Positions 4,732 through 14,704 of a stretch of 24,309 bases of DNA are shown here, in pieces. The stretch spans positions 1-24,309 of IMG/VR virus record IMGVR_UViG_3300025659_000023; one strand, written 5' to 3'. Source of the DNA: a virus. Under the pieces are notes generated by a model. That model had not been told where the DNA came from. It made no database searches and saw nothing but the letters and a program-made list of their open reading frames with translations. The position numbers were made by a program, and so were the translations under genes. Each line of letters starts with the position of its first letter. Position 1 is the stretch's first letter.

Positions 4732-4992
4732 ATGGAACTAATTGATTTATTAATCGAAAAGTTTGATGGTGTTCTCATTGATGAATATGATTGGGAACAT
4801 TATAAGGTGAATGGTAAAAACTACGATATCAGATTTGATAGAAGTAGAATTGAATGGGCGTGTGATTGTAAAGCATTTACTTTCCGACACAAGTTCAAGA
4901 CAAAATATTGTAAACATATTTTGGAAGTTCAAGATAAGAAATTTAAACAAAGGGTAATCAGTAGAGGCCGTGCTGGTGCCAGAGTGGTTTAA
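4732..4992 (+). CDS. SWIM zinc-finger-like small protein
   Basis: 86 residues. WACDCKAFTFRHKFKTKYCKHI (about 42-63) fits the SWIM pattern C-x-C-x(n)-C-x-H, a zinc-binding motif that in other proteins mediates DNA or protein contacts. The rest is short, with an acidic N-terminus and basic C-terminus (KFKQRVISRGRAGARVV). It starts just after the membrane peptide. Its last 23 bases lie inside the tRNA-Cys gene, so tRNA processing would cut the message inside the coding region. The last 8 residues may therefore be non-essential. Confidence 0.65.
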   Translation: MELIDLLIEKFDGVLIDEYDWEHYKVNGKNYDIRFDRSRIEWACDCKAFTFRHKFKTKYCKHILEVQDKKFKQRVISRGRAGARVV

Positions 4993-5043
4993 TGGGGTGG
5001 ATTGCAAATCCATTATTCGTAGGTTCGAATCCTATCCAGCACT
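4970..5043 (+). tRNA. tRNA-Cys (anticodon GCA)
   Basis: Complete cloverleaf: acceptor GTGCTGG pairing with CCAGCAC, 3-bp D stem CCA/TGG with a GTGGTTTAA loop, anticodon stem GTGGA/TCCAT around loop TTGCAAA (anticodon GCA), T arm GTAGG-TTCGAAT-CCTAT. The discriminator base is T at 5043, the identity base of tRNA-Cys. The 3' CCA is not encoded (TCAAA follows), so host nucleotidyltransferase must add it. Overlaps the 3' end of the SWIM gene. Confidence 0.95.
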
Positions 5044-5063
5044 CAAAGGGTGGAATAATATAA

Positions 5064-7774: not shown

Positions 7775-8320
7775 ATGGACTACCCGACAGATTTTAATAA
7801 AAAAAGACCAGGGCCATGGGATGATGAAACATTTGAACTAACAGAAGATGTATTTGCAAGATGGGATAAAGAGAATGAAAAGTGGTATAATAAATATTTT
7901 GTAAGACCACTTCAGAGATTCATTCAGACCATTAAAGATTTCCCATCTGAAGCTAAGTGGTTTTATCAGCGTGGAAGTAGAGGTTGGTCTGATAGGTCAG
8001 TTTGGTCAATTGATACTTGGTTGGTAGATAATTTGATTCCAATGTTAGAACGATTGAAAAACAATAAAATGGGTACACCAATGTCAATGTTTAAAAAGAA
8101 AGATGGAGTTGACAAAGATGGAAATCCAACTGATGAAGCCTCTGTATTGGCAGAACAAAGGTGGGAAAATGTATTGGGTGAAATTATTTATGGATTGAAA
8201 TGTGCAAAGACAATTCAGAATTACGATTACGAAGATAAAGAAGAAGTAAAGAAGTTGACAAAGAGTTCTCGGCGTTCATTTGAGTTGATTGGAAAGCACT
8301 TATTTAATTTGTGGGATTAA
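7775..8320 (+). CDS. Conserved phage protein of unknown function, paralogue 2
   Basis: 181 residues. Second copy of the family at 2463-2981, with the same blocks (FARWDKENEKWYNKYF, WFYQRGSRGWSDRSVWS, MSMFKKKDGVDKDGNPTDEAS, SFELIGKHLFNLWD). The N-terminus differs (MDYPTDFNKKRPGPWDD). Identity falls mostly in synonymous and surface positions outside a 71-base identical block at 7826-7896. GAAGAAGAGA precedes the start. Function unknown; keeping both copies suggests dosage or diverged roles. Confidence 0.75.
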   Translation: MDYPTDFNKKRPGPWDDETFELTEDVFARWDKENEKWYNKYFVRPLQRFIQTIKDFPSEAKWFYQRGSRGWSDRSVWSIDTWLVDNLIPMLERLKNNKMGTPMSMFKKKDGVDKDGNPTDEASVLAEQRWENVLGEIIYGLKCAKTIQNYDYEDKEEVKKLTKSSRRSFELIGKHLFNLWD

Positions 8321-9491: not shown

Positions 9492-9794
9492 ATGTTAAGA
9501 CCGATAGGTGCAAGAGTAGTAGTTGAACACAGAGAACGACAAGAAAAAACAGAGAGTGGAATTATAATACCAGATACAGCAAGAGAAGATGGATTACCAG
9601 ACATAGGAACAATAGTTGCATGTGGTAAGGGTTCGGTAAGTCATATGACAGGAGAAAGAATACCAATGGAAGTTAGTGTTGGTGATGATATTTACTATGG
9701 TAGATTTCAGGCACAAGAACTTGAGTATAAAGGTAAGAAATATTTGATACTTGGTGAACAAGATATTATAGCAGTGATAGAGGAAGAGGAGTAG
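9492..9794 (+). CDS. groES: GroES-like co-chaperonin (Cpn10)
   Basis: 100 residues, normal Cpn10 length. LRPIGARVVVEH begins the beta-barrel; KTESGIIIPDTA is the mobile loop that docks on GroEL through its hydrophobic triplet (here III). GDDIYYGRF and DIIAVIEE finish the fold. It should cap host GroEL, as T4 gp31 does to fold the major capsid protein; no GroEL is encoded in the window. It lies in the translation and folding gene block with peptide deformylase and the cold-shock protein. Confidence 0.93.
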   Translation: MLRPIGARVVVEHRERQEKTESGIIIPDTAREDGLPDIGTIVACGKGSVSHMTGERIPMEVSVGDDIYYGRFQAQELEYKGKKYLILGEQDIIAVIEEEE

Positions 9795-9859: not shown

Positions 9860-10019
9860 AGATTTAACAAAAAAATCTGATTTTGAATCAATAGAAAAAT
9901 TCATAACAGATGTTAAGAGTATTGATATATTAAAAAGAGAGTTAGCTAAAACACCGATTGATTATGATAACATCGGGCCAATACCAAAAAAAAGATTTGA
10001 AAGAAAAACTAAAAAATGA
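9852..10019 (+). CDS. Hypothetical basic protein, 55 residues
   Basis: MDKDLTKKSDFESIEKFITD... ending KRFERKTKK; helix-rich and charged, no domain recognised. Overlaps the preceding micro-peptide and the next gene (ATGA), so it is part of the same coupled run. Confidence 0.5.
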   Translation: MDKDLTKKSDFESIEKFITDVKSIDILKRELAKTPIDYDNIGPIPKKRFERKTKK

Positions 10020-10147
10020 TTTCTAAAGATAATTTAAAAAACAAATTAGAAAAATTGGAGTTGTTAATTGATAAGACTCAACCTGATGAATCAGATAAAG
10101 AACAATTATTTCAACAACATCAAATAGATAATTGTGATAACGGTTAG
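10016..10147 (+). CDS. Hypothetical protein, 43 residues, ends inside the first attC-like site
   Basis: MISKDNLKNKLEKLELLIDK..., likely a short coiled coil. ATGA overlap with the gene before it. Its last codons (AATTGTGATAACGGTTAG) form the outer left arm of the first attC-like hairpin, so the cassette array begins exactly at the end of this gene. Confidence 0.5.
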   Translation: MISKDNLKNKLEKLELLIDKTQPDESDKEQLFQQHQIDNCDNG

Positions 10148-10264
10148 TATATGAGTAGTGGCAGATAGAAAGCACCTACTTATCGTAAAGCAAAAAGTGA
10201 ATAGATAAACAGAAACTTAAAATTAAACAATAACCTGCCATTACTTATATACATTGTTATATAC
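10131..10264 (+). repeat. attC-like site 0 (left edge of the cassette array)
   Basis: Imperfect hairpin. The left arm GTATATGAGTAGTGGCAG (10147-10164) pairs with CTGCCATTACTTATATAC (10235-10252) at 16 of 18 positions, extended outward by AAC (10139) against GTT (10256). The outer boxes are ATTGTGATAACGG (10131) and GTTATATAC (10256-10264). A 70-base loop lies between. Size and layout fit a long attC; it could instead be an attI-type insertion point. Confidence 0.6.
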
Positions 10265-10292
10265 TGTATTGGCGACTTAAAAAGCACAGACC

Positions 10293-10883
10293 TTGAAAAA
10301 ATACAATATAATTTATGCAGACCCTGCTTGGAAGTTTGGAAGTAGATTAGCGAATGGAAATGATAAAAACGGAATAGTAAATTTAAAGCAAGTTAAAATT
10401 GGTGATAATTATACCGTAATGACAACCGATGAAATTTGCAAAATGCCTGTAAAAAATATGACTGCTGATGATGCTATTCTTTTTTTATGGACAACCGATG
10501 CTCACTTGGAAGAAGCAATGAAAGTAATAAACGCTTGGGGTTTTAAATATAAAACGATTGGTTTTACTTGGTTAAAAAAAGAAAAAAGTGGTGTTCAAAG
10601 TTGCTATGTAGGTTTTTGGACGACTAAATGTGGCGAAATATGTCTATTAGCAACAAAAGGCAAAATGAGTAAATATTTAAAAAAACGAAATGTAAGGCAA
10701 TTAGTAGAAGCGGTAAGAGGTAGGCATTCTGAAAAACCAAACGAAGTAAGAAAAAGAATAGTTGAAATGTTTGGAAATGATATTCCAAAAACAGAACTAT
10801 TTGCAAGAGAAAATTTTGACGGTTGGGATGCGTGGGGCAATGAAGTTGAAGACAGTATAGACCTAAGCCAATATTGTATATAA
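10293..10883 (+). CDS. MT-A70-type adenine N6-methyltransferase (cassette 1)
   Basis: 196 residues. MKKYNIIYADPAWKFGS has the catalytic motif of the MT-A70/ParB-associated family as DPAW (D10-W13) instead of the usual DPPW; the Pro-to-Ala form also occurs in this family. ILFLWTT, YKTIGFTWLKK and the C-terminal RGRHSEKPNEVRKRIVEMFG...KTELFAR are typical downstream blocks. Methylates adenine in DNA; short targets such as GANTC or GATC are known for relatives, but the site here is unknown. The start is TTG at 10293 with no ribosome site; the preceding cassette edge is 20 bases upstream. The stop codon (TAA) lies within the R'' box of the next attC-like site. Confidence 0.88.
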   Translation: MKKYNIIYADPAWKFGSRLANGNDKNGIVNLKQVKIGDNYTVMTTDEICKMPVKNMTADDAILFLWTTDAHLEEAMKVINAWGFKYKTIGFTWLKKEKSGVQSCYVGFWTTKCGEICLLATKGKMSKYLKKRNVRQLVEAVRGRHSEKPNEVRKRIVEMFGNDIPKTELFARENFDGWDAWGNEVEDSIDLSQYCI

Positions 10884-11012
10884 CGGAATGCAAATAAGAA
10901 CAGTAAAATTATGAAAGAAAAAATATTAAAAATAGCTGACAAATTACGCAACAATGAAATAACAACAGAGGATGCAGAAACCCTTTTATTGTTTTTATTT
11001 GGTGTTGTACAC
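10876..11012 (+). repeat. attC-like site 1, with a small gene in its loop
   Basis: Outer boxes GTATATAAC (10876-10884) and GTTGTACAC (11004-11012). Inner arms AAATAAGAACAGTAAAA (10892-10908) and TTTTATTGTTTTTATTT (10984-11000) pair over 17 positions with two G-T wobbles. The loop holds most of a 39-codon gene. Length about 137 bases, within the upper range known for attC sites. Confidence 0.65.
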
Positions 11013-11030
11013 TGTATTGCGATTAAATAA
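10911..11030 (+). CDS. Small conserved peptide inside attC site 1, 39 residues
   Basis: MKEKILKIADKLRNNEITTE followed by DAETLLLFLFGV. The pattern (helical, KIADxLRNxxIT, then a leucine-rich end with LFGV) resembles short peptides I associate with Bacteroidota and their phages, none with a known role. The start lies just after the left arm of the hairpin. The end covers the right arm and the R' box, so the protein sequence and the recombination site constrain each other. Confidence 0.6.
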   Translation: MKEKILKIADKLRNNEITTEDAETLLLFLFGVVHCIAIK

Positions 11031-11047
11031 ACTAAAACTTTAATTAA

Positions 11048-12091
11048 ATGACGAAACATAGTAATAATATTTTTTTGAGCGATGGCAAAATGGCTGACGA
11101 TAGGAAGACAAATAACCTATTGTGGTTTGGTAACTGCTTGGAAGAAATGAAACGAATACCAAGTAAAAGTATTGACCTTATTTGTTGTGATTTACCTTAT
11201 GGAACGACTGCTTGTAGTTGGGATACAATAATACCATTTGAAAAACTTTGGAAAGAGTACAAGCGAATTATAAAAGATAAAGGTGTTATAGTATTATTTG
11301 GTTCTGAACCATTCTCTACGCTTTTAAGAGCAAGTAATTTGGATTGGTATAAATACGATTGGATTTGGGAAAAGAATAATGCAGGAAACTTTCAATTGGT
11401 AAATTACCAACCTTTAAAAGTACACGAAAATATTTCTGTATTTTACAATGAAACACCTAATCTTCAATTTTCTGAAATTATGAAAAGCAATATGGAACGA
11501 CTTAACTTAAAACAAATTGACGTTTCAAGATTGCAATTATCTAAAAATGGGAACATAACAGGCTGGGTCGCAAATAAATTAAATGGTTCACAACTACCAA
11601 CAAAAGAGCAATGGTTTAAAATATGTGATTTATTTGGAATAGAGGATAATTATAATGAAATACTAAACTCTGTAAAAAGTGTTACTTACAACTTGGATTT
11701 ACAAGATACAGATATTAAATGTAGTAATAAGGGGAAAGCAGGAAGTTTAGGTCATTTATCATCTGAAAGCAAAAGAGAAACTTATAACCAAACAAAAACA
11801 GGCTATCCAAAAAGTATATTAAAATACAATAGAGAAAATGATTACCACACAACTCAAAAACCATTAGGATTGATAAAGTTTTTTATTGAAACTTACTCCA
11901 ATAAAGGGGAAGTGGTTTTAGATAACACTTGCGGAAGTGATACAACAGGAATAGCAAGTTTTGAACTTGGTAGAAATAGCATAAGTATTGAAAACGATTT
12001 AGATATTTACAAACTTGCTAAAAAAAGAAGGGAAGAAAAAAATATTATTGCGGTTGATATGCACGAAACTTTAATTGATGCACAGACGTAG
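11048..12091 (+). CDS. Beta-class DNA methyltransferase with altered motif I (cassette 2)
   Basis: 347 residues. Catalytic DLPYGTTACSWD at 48-51 onward, then LFGSEPFST, a central recognition region (LNGSQLPTKEQWFKICDLFG), HTTQKP and motif I near the C-terminus. Closest relative in the window is 313-1269, with long matching stretches such as YDWxWEKNNAGNFQL. Motif I reads LDNTCGSDTTGIA: the third glycine of the usual GSG is Asp (D298). That glycine lines the S-adenosylmethionine pocket, so activity may be reduced or lost, or this may be a tolerated variant. The TAG stop directly abuts the R'' box of attC site 2. Confidence 0.85.
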   Translation: MTKHSNNIFLSDGKMADDRKTNNLLWFGNCLEEMKRIPSKSIDLICCDLPYGTTACSWDTIIPFEKLWKEYKRIIKDKGVIVLFGSEPFSTLLRASNLDWYKYDWIWEKNNAGNFQLVNYQPLKVHENISVFYNETPNLQFSEIMKSNMERLNLKQIDVSRLQLSKNGNITGWVANKLNGSQLPTKEQWFKICDLFGIEDNYNEILNSVKSVTYNLDLQDTDIKCSNKGKAGSLGHLSSESKRETYNQTKTGYPKSILKYNRENDYHTTQKPLGLIKFFIETYSNKGEVVLDNTCGSDTTGIASFELGRNSISIENDLDIYKLAKKRREEKNIIAVDMHETLIDAQT

Positions 12092-12172
12092 CAATATTGT
12101 GTACAACGTTAAGGGTATGGTGTCGGTTGCTTTTCGCAACTGCACCATAACCATTGTTGTGCATAGTGCGGA
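12091..12172 (+). repeat. attC-like site 2 (most typical)
   Basis: Outer boxes GTGTACAACG (12099) and TTGTTGTGCAT (12154-12163). The inner stem GGTATGGTG...GTTGC (12115-12130) pairs with GCAAC...CACCATAACC (12137-12152), with bulges and a TTTTC loop. About 65 bases between the box ends: the classic 59-base-element size and unpaired-base pattern. Confidence 0.75.
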
Positions 12173-12196
12173 TTATTAACAGAAAAACTAAATAGA

Positions 12197-13123
12197 ATGA
12201 AATTATACAAAGGAGATTGCTTGATAGAAAGTGATAAAATAGAAAGTGGAAGCGTTGATTTAATATTAACTGATTTGCCTTATGGAACGGTTAAAGATAT
12301 TAAAAATGTAAATCATGGAATGAGTGGAAAATGTGATTGGGATGTTGTAATTGACACAAACGAAATTTATAAAATAGCAAATAGAATATTGAGAAAGGAT
12401 GGTAAAATCATTTTGTTTGCTCAACAACCATTTACAAATGAATTAATAAATAAAGCTATTGAAAATATACCTTTTAATTATAGTATGATTTGGGAAAAAG
12501 ACCACTTTGCAAATGCTTTGACTGCTAAGAAAGCACCTCTAAATTACTATGAAGATGTTTTAGTTTTTAGTAAAGACTATGAAAAGGGAAAAAATATAAA
12601 ACCAACAAATCCTGTTTATGATTATCTAAAAGGTTGCAAAATTGAAAGCGGAATAACTACAACTGAATTTAATTATAAATATTGTGAGTATTCAGGCAAA
12701 GAAAAAAACAAGCATAGAAGTTTGGTTGCAAGATATTGGGAAACATCACAATTTTTAGTACCTACAAAAGAAATATATGAAAACGTTTTGCAACCCACTG
12801 GATTTTTTAAATTACCTTATGAAGAAATGATAAAAATGAATACTTATAAAGGTTCTATTTTTAATTTATGGGAAGGTAAAAAATACAAAAGCAATATTTT
12901 AAAATACAAAAAAGATTATGATGGACACCACCCGACACAAAAGCCTATTTTATTGTTAGAAGATTTGATTAAAACCTTTAGTAATGAAAATGATTTAGTA
13001 GTGGATTTAACTATGGGTAGTGGAAGTACTGGTGTAGCTTGTAAAAACACCAATAGAGATTTTATAGGTATTGAGATGAATGATGAATACTATTATATTG
13101 CTTGTAAAAGAGTAGGATTGTAG
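12197..13123 (+). CDS. Beta-class DNA methyltransferase (cassette 3)
   Basis: 308 residues: MKLYKGDCLIESDKIESGSV, motif IV TDLPYGT (D26-Y29), LFAQQPFTNELI, a variable recognition region (about 140-230), HHPTQKP and motif I VVDLTMGSGSTGVAC (GSG at 274-276) near the end. An intact beta-class adenine-N6 or cytosine-N4 enzyme. The recognition region is unlike that of cassette 2, so the target should differ. Starts 25 bases after the R' box of attC site 2; no clear ribosome site. Its stop (TAG) is 3 bases from the next R'' box. Confidence 0.9.
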   Translation: MKLYKGDCLIESDKIESGSVDLILTDLPYGTVKDIKNVNHGMSGKCDWDVVIDTNEIYKIANRILRKDGKIILFAQQPFTNELINKAIENIPFNYSMIWEKDHFANALTAKKAPLNYYEDVLVFSKDYEKGKNIKPTNPVYDYLKGCKIESGITTTEFNYKYCEYSGKEKNKHRSLVARYWETSQFLVPTKEIYENVLQPTGFFKLPYEEMIKMNTYKGSIFNLWEGKKYKSNILKYKKDYDGHHPTQKPILLLEDLIKTFSNENDLVVDLTMGSGSTGVACKNTNRDFIGIEMNDEYYYIACKRVGL

Positions 13124-13126
13124 TAT

Positions 13127-13151
13127 TATGCACAACATTAGATATGTTGAT
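13127..13151 (+). repeat. Right edge of the cassette array (R''-like box and short stem)
   Basis: TATGCACAAC (13127-13136) is complementary to the R' box GTTGTGCATA at 12156. It is followed by a short stem CAACAT/ATGTTG (13134-13139 with 13145-13150). Much shorter than a normal attC, so this last site looks truncated or replaced by phage sequence. Confidence 0.45.
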
Positions 13152-13469
13152 AATTTAAAGAATCAGCTGAATTTAACTTTAGATGAAAGAGAACATTTAA
13201 TTTACATCATGAGAACTTCAAACAAAGTTTGGAAGATGAGAAATAAAATGTTAGATGGAGATTGGAACTTAGAAGATGTTAAGTTAGATGATATGGAAAA
13301 AGAATTAAGAACTCTTTTACCTAATAATAAGATAGGTGCCATTAAACATTATAGACAAGTTATGATAGACGAATTTGGAAAACAAGTTTCTCTTAGAGAT
13401 TCGAAAGAACGAATAGATAATCTCTGCAGAGAAATGACTTACGAACAAGGTTTAATAATAAACCACTAA
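13128..13469 (+). CDS. Hypothetical protein, 113 residues; start lies in the cassette edge
   Basis: Soluble, charged helical protein, MHNIRYVDNLKNQLNLTLDEREHLIYIMR... with KHYRQVMIDEFGKQVSLRDSKERIDN. No family recognised. Its ATG is part of the R''-like box ending cassette 3 (TATGCACAAC), and no ribosome site is visible. The array may thus have supplied or replaced the original start; internal candidates are rare before Met at residue 28. The next gene follows 17 bases later behind AAGGAG. Confidence 0.6.
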   Translation: MHNIRYVDNLKNQLNLTLDEREHLIYIMRTSNKVWKMRNKMLDGDWNLEDVKLDDMEKELRTLLPNNKIGAIKHYRQVMIDEFGKQVSLRDSKERIDNLCREMTYEQGLIINH

Positions 13470-14119: not shown

Positions 14120-14287
14120 ATGGGCATTAGTATGGTGGAGATTAAAGAAAAATTAGAAAAAGCGTATAACGATGAAAATTGGAGTATCATAGAAGAGTTG
14201 TTAGAAACCTTATCATATGAGATTGAAAATGGTGAAGGTTTATTTGAACAATATAAAGATGATGAAGAAGAAGATTTATGGGGCTGA
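14120..14287 (+). CDS. Hypothetical acidic protein, 55 residues; 3' end overlaps the tmRNA
   Basis: MGISMVEIKEKLEKAYNDEN... ending in EEEDLWG, acidic and helical. ATG 14120 has AAGGAA upstream; an upstream in-frame start at 14045 would lie inside the membrane gene. Its last 8 bases, including the TGA, are the first bases of the tmRNA acceptor stem. Confidence 0.5.
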   Translation: MGISMVEIKEKLEKAYNDENWSIIEELLETLSYEIENGEGLFEQYKDDEEEDLWG

Positions 14288-14687
14288 CATGGAGATCGAC
14301 TGGTGTTATTCGATACTAAAGTGCAGCAGAGTTTGAGTAGACTCTTAAATAAGACTCAACGAAACCTAAATGGCGATACATCGCTACAAGGGTTGGACAT
14401 TGATTGGCATCTAGCCAATGCTGAAATGGGATTCGACAATTTTGTTGCTCCTGTTCAGAATGACCAACCAACTTACGCTTACGCATAAGTTACTGAGTTG
14501 TCTAACACTCGGTCATAAAATAAGTTAGACAAACAACTCTCGCATATGAGTATAAAGATGCACGGAGCTATCCAAAAAAATAGTCGGTGGTTTGTAGGTA
14601 ACTTCTCGGAGGGTAGTAACCTAATAAGCTGTAAATGACTTTGTAAAGAAATCATACAGGACGGGAGTTCGATTCTCCCCAGCTCCA
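14280..14687 (+). ncRNA. ssrA: tmRNA (transfer-messenger RNA)
   Basis: 408 nucleotides. The ends fold as an alanine tRNA: 5' GGGGCTG (14280-14286) pairs with CAGCTCC (14680-14686, one G-U), and the T arm is GGGAG-TTCGATT-CTCCC. The D-like segment ATGGAGATCGACTGGTG follows the 5' end; the discriminator is A14687; CCA is not encoded. The tag reading frame ends ...NDQPTYAYA with TAA at 14486-14488. It probably opens near GCC 14414 (24 codons), but the resume codon cannot be fixed by eye. The stem after the stop (GAGTTG/CAACTC and TCTAAC/GTTAGA) fits the helix 5 and pseudoknot region. tmRNA with SmpB frees stalled ribosomes and tags the product. The ending AYA departs from the common LAA or VAA. 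Confidence 0.93.
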
Positions 14688-14704
14688 CAACTAAGAGGAA
14701 ATGA

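Follow-up and report, generated by a model that had tools for sequence, protein, structure and literature searches.

An array of DNA methyltransferase genes very probably belonging to an integron-like cassette system of Bacteroidota phages

Integrons combine a tyrosine recombinase with an adjacent attI site and an array of one-gene cassettes. The cassette sites fold through paired R''/R' and L''/L' arms, have AAC/GTT cores and covary in the R boxes of their own cassette, and cassettes are gained precisely at attI and precisely lost again. Reports of integron sites in phages are few, and where phage cassettes come from was an open question. Our study concerns a 24,309-nucleotide (nt) phage fragment from IMG/VR (record IMGVR_UViG_3300025659_000023, positions 1 to 24,309; this whole stretch is called the window below), in which a baseplate wedge gene is present and an array of 2,995 bases (10142-13136) consists of three tandem DNA methyltransferase cassettes. 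Very probably, the array is made up of three mobile cassettes that belong to an integron-like system found in phages of Bacteroidota. This system shares with integrons the properties listed above, but its cassette genes are directed towards the recombinase, with the gene-sense strand as the folding strand and the AAC side as the one that would be cut. Pairing between the R arms of its sites reaches about 15 nt and includes a conserved G.T wobble at position 11, and its recombinase is without the IntI insert and falls under the integron-integrase score cut-off.

Three described systems come close. DNA methyltransferase cassettes in integrase-less phages are also a feature of the phage clusters of attC sites lacking integrases (CALINs) of Qi et al., 2023 (PMC9892861), among them the previously reported attC-site cluster with methyltransferases of Polaribacter phage P12002L; methyltransferase cassettes in virulent phages are therefore not new. 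As far as the accessible parts of that article go, the P12002L attC sites are of divergent direction, and no polarity rule, recombinase, attI or turnover is given. The recombinase-associated acquired interbacterial defence (rAID) loci of Bacteroidales, which among Bacteroidota arrays with a tyrosine recombinase come nearest, likewise bring together a tyrosine recombinase, a short co-directed gene array and conserved intergenic motifs (PMC12247911), but their immunity genes lie downstream of the recombinase, whereas the phage cassettes lie upstream and the window cargo consists of methyltransferases. A rAID-like plasmid locus (L201) that we considered as a member of the same system was set aside, there being no matched arms around its genes. 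Spirochaete integrons with a reversed intI share an unusual relative orientation of integrase and array (PMC9668308); there it is the integrase gene that is reversed, whereas here attI lies upstream of the recombinase as in the canon and it is the cassette genes that are reversed. Our search of the open-access literature, with few preprints and no subscription papers, returned no account of reversed cassettes, of a phage recombinase/attI pair or of the cassette turnover in Polaribacter phage Freya described below.

Repeats, empty site and polarity of the array

The three methyltransferase open reading frames (ORFs) are each framed by an inverted repeat, at 10256-10273/10867-10884 (89%), 11004-11020/12091-12107 (88%) and 12156-12172/13120-13136, the last of which overlaps a 23-nt pair at 12143-12165/13127-13149 (83%). 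The left arms of genes 1, 2 and 3 are GTTATATACTGTATTGGC, GTTGTACACTGTATTGCG and GTTGTGCATAGTGCGG, respectively, and the right arms match them; the R boxes are different from gene to gene and the same within each gene. Both the framing and the pairing of each repeat with its own partner, read as R''/R' covariation, had been noted in a first-pass annotation of this DNA, and both hold. In a chance control that took all GTT/AAC pairs lying 300-2000 nt apart in the window (15,180 pairs) and asked for matched first 8 bases and at most 4 mismatches in 16, only eight pairs passed, three of which are the methyltransferase-framing pairs, abutting in tandem.

The boundaries of the array were defined by comparison with an empty site, in relatives retrieved with the gene that lies right of the array as query. 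The array is present in two contigs from the same phage (L028 and L029) and missing from two relatives (L030 and L031), so that the site without cassettes, which the first-pass annotation had proposed to look for, does exist in related phages. In L030 and L031, the equivalent of 10013-10141 is fused straight to that of 13137 onward (junction ...AATTGTGATAAC|ATTAGATATGTTG), with 122 of 126 positions identical to the window on the left and 323 of 331 on the right. Because these phages join 10141 to 13137, the insert begins after the AAC at 10139-10141 and ends with the AAC at 13134-13136 (both on the plus strand, as are all features of the array), and these two cores are the recombining boundaries. 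By analogy, the inner boundaries would be the AAC cores at 10882-10884 and 12105-12107. There is no target-site duplication, the ends and the target having only the 3-nt AAC core in common. The excision points G/TT at 10256, 11004 and 12156 proposed in the first-pass annotation have to be abandoned in favour of an AAC boundary on the 3' side of the gene; canonical G|TT cassette boundaries are ruled out by the empty site and by the Freya junctions presented below.

The insertion splits a phage gene of 152 amino acids (aa) that is open in L030 and L031. Its 5' part (10016-10141, codons 1-42) ends in the AAC target core and reaches a stop 2 codons into the insert. The 3' part (13137-13469) may still be expressed, since an ATG at 13128, within the last R'' box (13128-13136, ATG CAC AAC), is in frame with it.

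On the left, the insert begins with a full hairpin, and on the right it stops at a bare AAC with no hairpin after it, from which it follows that each unit has the order spacer hairpin - GTT arm - gene - AAC arm. Cassette 1 (743 nt, 10142-10884) is made up of the site A spacer (10142-10255) with an 18-base-pair L''/L' stem (GTATATGAGTAGTGGCAG/CTGCCATTACTTATATAC), the left arm (10256-10273), a gene for an MT-A70 family DNA methyltransferase of 196 aa (10293-10883; Pfam PF05063, E=9.6e-26) and the right arm (10867-10884). Cassette 2 (1223 nt, 10885-12107) has its spacer at 10885-11003, its left arm at 11004-11020, an N6_N4_Mtase DNA methyltransferase gene encoding 347 aa (11048-12091; PF01555, E=1.9e-24) and its right arm at 12091-12107, and in cassette 3 (1029 nt, 12108-13136) the spacer (12108-12155) and left arm (12156-12172) are followed by a second N6_N4_Mtase gene, encoding 308 aa (12197-13123; PF01555, E=4.5e-35), and the right arm (13120-13136). 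The 119-nt site B spacer of cassette 2, which falls in a 118-120-nt class of spacers, also holds most of a small ORF (MKEKILKIADKLRNNEITTEDAETLLLFLFGV...).

A canonical cassette inserted in a secondary site would be expected to leave a bare GTT on the left and a full site on the right, the opposite of what is seen in the window. With the crossover at the AAC on the 3' side of the gene, the folding site lies upstream of its own gene, and the cassettes run opposite to those of canonical integrons, in which the G|TT crossover lies 5' of the gene and the gene points away from attI. The longest ORF is directed to the recombinase end in 36 of 39 cassettes, with the stop codon mostly 1 or 11-16 nt from the AAC. 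Predicted folding agrees: the circularised sites of units 1, 2 and 3 give -21.2, -17.3 and -22.9 kcal/mol for the gene-sense strand and -17.7, -13.7 and -18.9 kcal/mol for the other strand, and the gene-sense strand is the more stable one in 38 of 39 cassette sites (Wilcoxon p=6e-8). For canonical integrons, Qi et al. give the bottom strand as the more recombinogenic (PMC9892861).

The hairpins covary. In an ungapped alignment of 22 circularised sites that left the window out, 83.7% of cells are paired compared to 58.2% after shuffling (0 of 500 shuffles reached the observed value), and 191 cells have changed on both sides compared to 68.5 in shuffled alignments; the signal is lost when the partners are slid. 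This pairing signal is partly selected by the way in which cassettes and spacers were found, and the partner-swap tests described below are the better controls. A covariance model built from the 22-site alignment (model R1), trained without the window and without long loops, recovered site C of the window (12093-12170, R''-L''-variable terminal structure-L'-R') on the predicted strand as the best recombination-site match within the window, with 28.4 bits and E=2e-4 over 296 kb. Model R1 also matches P12002L sites (E=5.6e-5 and 0.016, both on the gene-sense strand) and four further phage contigs (L033, L114, L115 and L122), with no match in the empty-site phages. No Rfam family matched at the array. 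Folded sites with paired R''/R' and L''/L' arms that covary within their own cassette, as in integrons, are a property of this group of sequences.

Related cassettes, a recombinase family and cassette turnover

The methyltransferase families of the window recur as cassettes in other phages. In L033, methyltransferase 1 recurs at 91% identity; the R box there (GTTAGGTGTA) is entirely unlike that of the window, yet it matches on both sides of the gene. Methyltransferase 2 is found in L114 and L122, where the R box is that of the window and the spacers are different, and L008 has methyltransferase 3 in a cassette with the R box of the window. The closely related cassettes of methyltransferase 1 (compared at window 10867-10884 and L033 2736-2753) thus share their spacer stem and differ completely in the R boxes on both sides. 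Relatives of methyltransferase 3 in Cellulophaga phage phi10:1 and in Nekkels were examined as cassettes and rejected, as they have no repeat frame. The cassette architecture of P12002L is the same as that of the window. The phage array in L115 (3750-5250) has one R box (GTTACC) common to its sites, like the uniform arrays of sedentary integrons; the tyrosine-recombinase search found no recombinase on this contig.

That search, run over the cassette-bearing contigs, gave two matches, in L145 and L144. In both, the recombinase gene comes directly after the bare AAC end of the array, on the strand of the cassette genes. The L145 protein belongs to a family of tyrosine recombinases of ~267 aa, whose members we took from viral contigs, 35 loci having usable upstream DNA. 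An attI-like motif, AAC|TATTATATATAC, lies directly upstream of the recombinase gene in all 35 of these phage-contig loci. A cassette usually adjoins this motif on its upstream side, with 15-nt arms that pair with at most 2 mismatches in 25 of 35 cases, compared to 25 of 1,184 when arms were swapped between loci. Of the 32 loci in which the arms differ by no more than 4 mismatches, 28 show G at position 11 of the left arm and A at this position in the complement of the right arm, which amounts to a conserved G.T wobble in the gene-sense strand. A DNA methyltransferase gene is present in five of the recombinase-adjacent cassettes. Among the recombinase contigs, terminase (PF03237) is found in 5 of 18 and Phage_capsid (PF05065) in 0 of 18.

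Judged by the usual test, the recombinase falls outside the IntI family. It scores 150-157 bits against the integron-integrase model TIGR02249, below the cut-off of 265, and has 31 aa between aligned blocks where IntI4 has 79, about 48 residues fewer. These residues separate the conserved halves of IntI4 and make up the region known as the IntI-specific domain, which has been deemed necessary for activity (PMC9668308). No integrase of the IntI type, with this extra domain close to patch III, is found in the window or among the related recombinases. An attI-like site beside the integrase gene is present in these relatives and not in the window.

Turnover of cassettes, upstream of the recombinase gene, is seen in isolates of Polaribacter phage Freya from one host, Polaribacter sp. 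HaHaR_3_91; the Freya recombinase is 37% identical to that of L145 (array loci L202-L208, L213, L214, L215 and L216 were compared, L214 being Freya_6). Relative to Freya_10, 4942 bases are missing from Freya_1, 4100 from Freya_2, 3198 from Freya_5, 902 from Freya_8 and 307 from Freya_9, and all five loss junctions have an AAC or CAAC overlap. Gain is illustrated by Freya_6, which equals Freya_5 plus a 472-base cassette that is not in Freya_10 and sits exactly between AAC and the attI-like ACCCCTATAAC. Precise site-specific excision and insertion can thus be read from natural genomes, both in the empty site of the window array and in the Freya isolates. The system acts like an integron in that it has an attI and cassette sites that fold, and in that cassettes enter at attI and are lost between sites. 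In another Polaribacter phage, Danklef_1 (L197, 2741-3037), a small cassette (GTTGTGTGTAGTACG / GTTGTGTGTAATACT) lies directly ahead of a shortened integrase gene.

Proposed mechanism and alternative explanations

The free cassette would be a DNA circle with one folding site, in the order R''(..AAC)-spacer-L''-loop-L'-GTT-R', whose gene-sense strand would form a hairpin. A tyrosine recombinase, which we infer to be of the ~267-aa family, would cut the folded site within the AAC and, in an exchange of one DNA strand, join it to another AAC; this partner could be attI next to the recombinase, the site of a further cassette or a secondary site. The array of the window would have entered a secondary AAC in a phage gene that is presumably dispensable. 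Since its target is unlike attI and no recombinase was seen in this phage, the enzyme was probably supplied in trans, from the host or from a co-infecting phage. The methyltransferase cargo would most likely guard phage DNA from host restriction.

Several observations weigh against this explanation. The window has no recombinase, as the first-pass annotation had stated, and none is present in the 42- and 77-kb contigs of the same phage. The insertion target scores -29.9 against an ungapped attI profile, and ~97% of the AAC sites of the phage score equal or higher; we therefore dropped the idea that the insertion point is an attI look-alike, and it is a secondary site at best. Model R1 matches site A weakly (15.1 bits) and misses site B, both of which are long-looped. 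Lastly, the identity between the Freya and L145 recombinases is such that activity is carried over by homology, and the Freya variation is known from deposited assemblies.

It is improbable, all the same, that the array is an ordinary CALIN, i.e. a set of canonical cassettes with the gene upstream of attC, derived from a canonical bacterial IntI cutting at G|TT. Such an origin would be in keeping with the methyltransferase-bearing CALINs reported in virulent phages, including P12002L with its window-like architecture, and with a published assay in which IntI1 recombines P12002L_attC2 with attI1 (both in PMC9892861). It is contradicted by the junctions at AAC on the 3' side of the gene, in the empty site and in five of five Freya losses, by array ends that consist of a full hairpin on the left and a bare AAC on the right, by a better-folding strand that is the opposite of the canon, and by an array-adjacent recombinase without the IntI insert. 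The first-pass reading of an integron-type cassette array stands as regards the array itself, the covariation and the natural empty site, and needs correction in that the polarity is reversed and the related recombinase is not a canonical IntI.

We give very little credence to three independent small transposons, each with its own terminal inverted repeats and either resembling miniature inverted-repeat transposable elements or moved by an HUH/Y1 enzyme cutting after AAC. Terminal repeats do frame each gene individually, and IS200/IS605 elements likewise insert behind a short core that is not duplicated, but a target duplication is absent, there is no gap between the units and the covarying spacer hairpin lies beyond the repeats, and a tyrosine recombinase with a conserved attI-like motif stands at the array end in every usable locus of the family. 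Just as far-fetched is phage mosaicism, in which homologous or illegitimate recombination exchanged the methyltransferase genes as a block and the repeats are transcription terminators or due to chance. Mosaic modules often contain methyltransferase genes, and methyltransferase 3 has many relatives without a repeat frame; nonetheless, the junctions are exact at AAC in both the window and Freya, the matched arms change together, and none of the partner-swap, shuffle and slide controls reproduces the pairing. Unless the Freya genomes are wrong, the exact cassette-wise variation among these isolates refutes this explanation.

Beyond the window, we consider it likely that Bacteroidota phages encode an integron class of their own, with a compact Xer/IntI-like recombinase that lacks the IntI domain, an attI of the AAC type and cassettes that are reversed, hence co-directional with the recombinase. 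While the phage grows, this system would shuffle accessory genes, among them many anti-restriction methyltransferases, and the cassettes would spread in trans into recombinase-less phages such as that of the window. Bacteroidota phages can now be credited with a probable recombinase, with an attI and with cassette turnover observed in natural isolates. The Freya 'integrase', which the original Freya paper treats only as a sign of temperate potential, with the words integron and cassette absent from its text, can be re-read as a probable cassette shuffler instead of a mark of lysogeny. Two textbook rules are put to the test, namely that the extra IntI domain is required for the chemistry and that cassette genes point away from attI, and the existence of isolated phages with array variants makes direct testing possible.

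Other features of the window

A further N6/N4 methyltransferase gene (313-1269) has ~75% DNA identity to part of the cassette 2 gene and has no cassette ends; a methyltransferase fragment (110-301) lies ahead of it. The phage genes at 2481-2981 and 7775-8320 are paralogues, with ~85% identity in DNA, and the phage carries a chaperonin 10 (GroES-like) gene at 9492-9794 (Pfam, E=6e-26). Rfam calls a tmRNA at 14280-14690 (75.5 bits, gathering threshold 47) for which ARAGORN makes no call, and both programs call a tRNA-Cys at 4970-5044.

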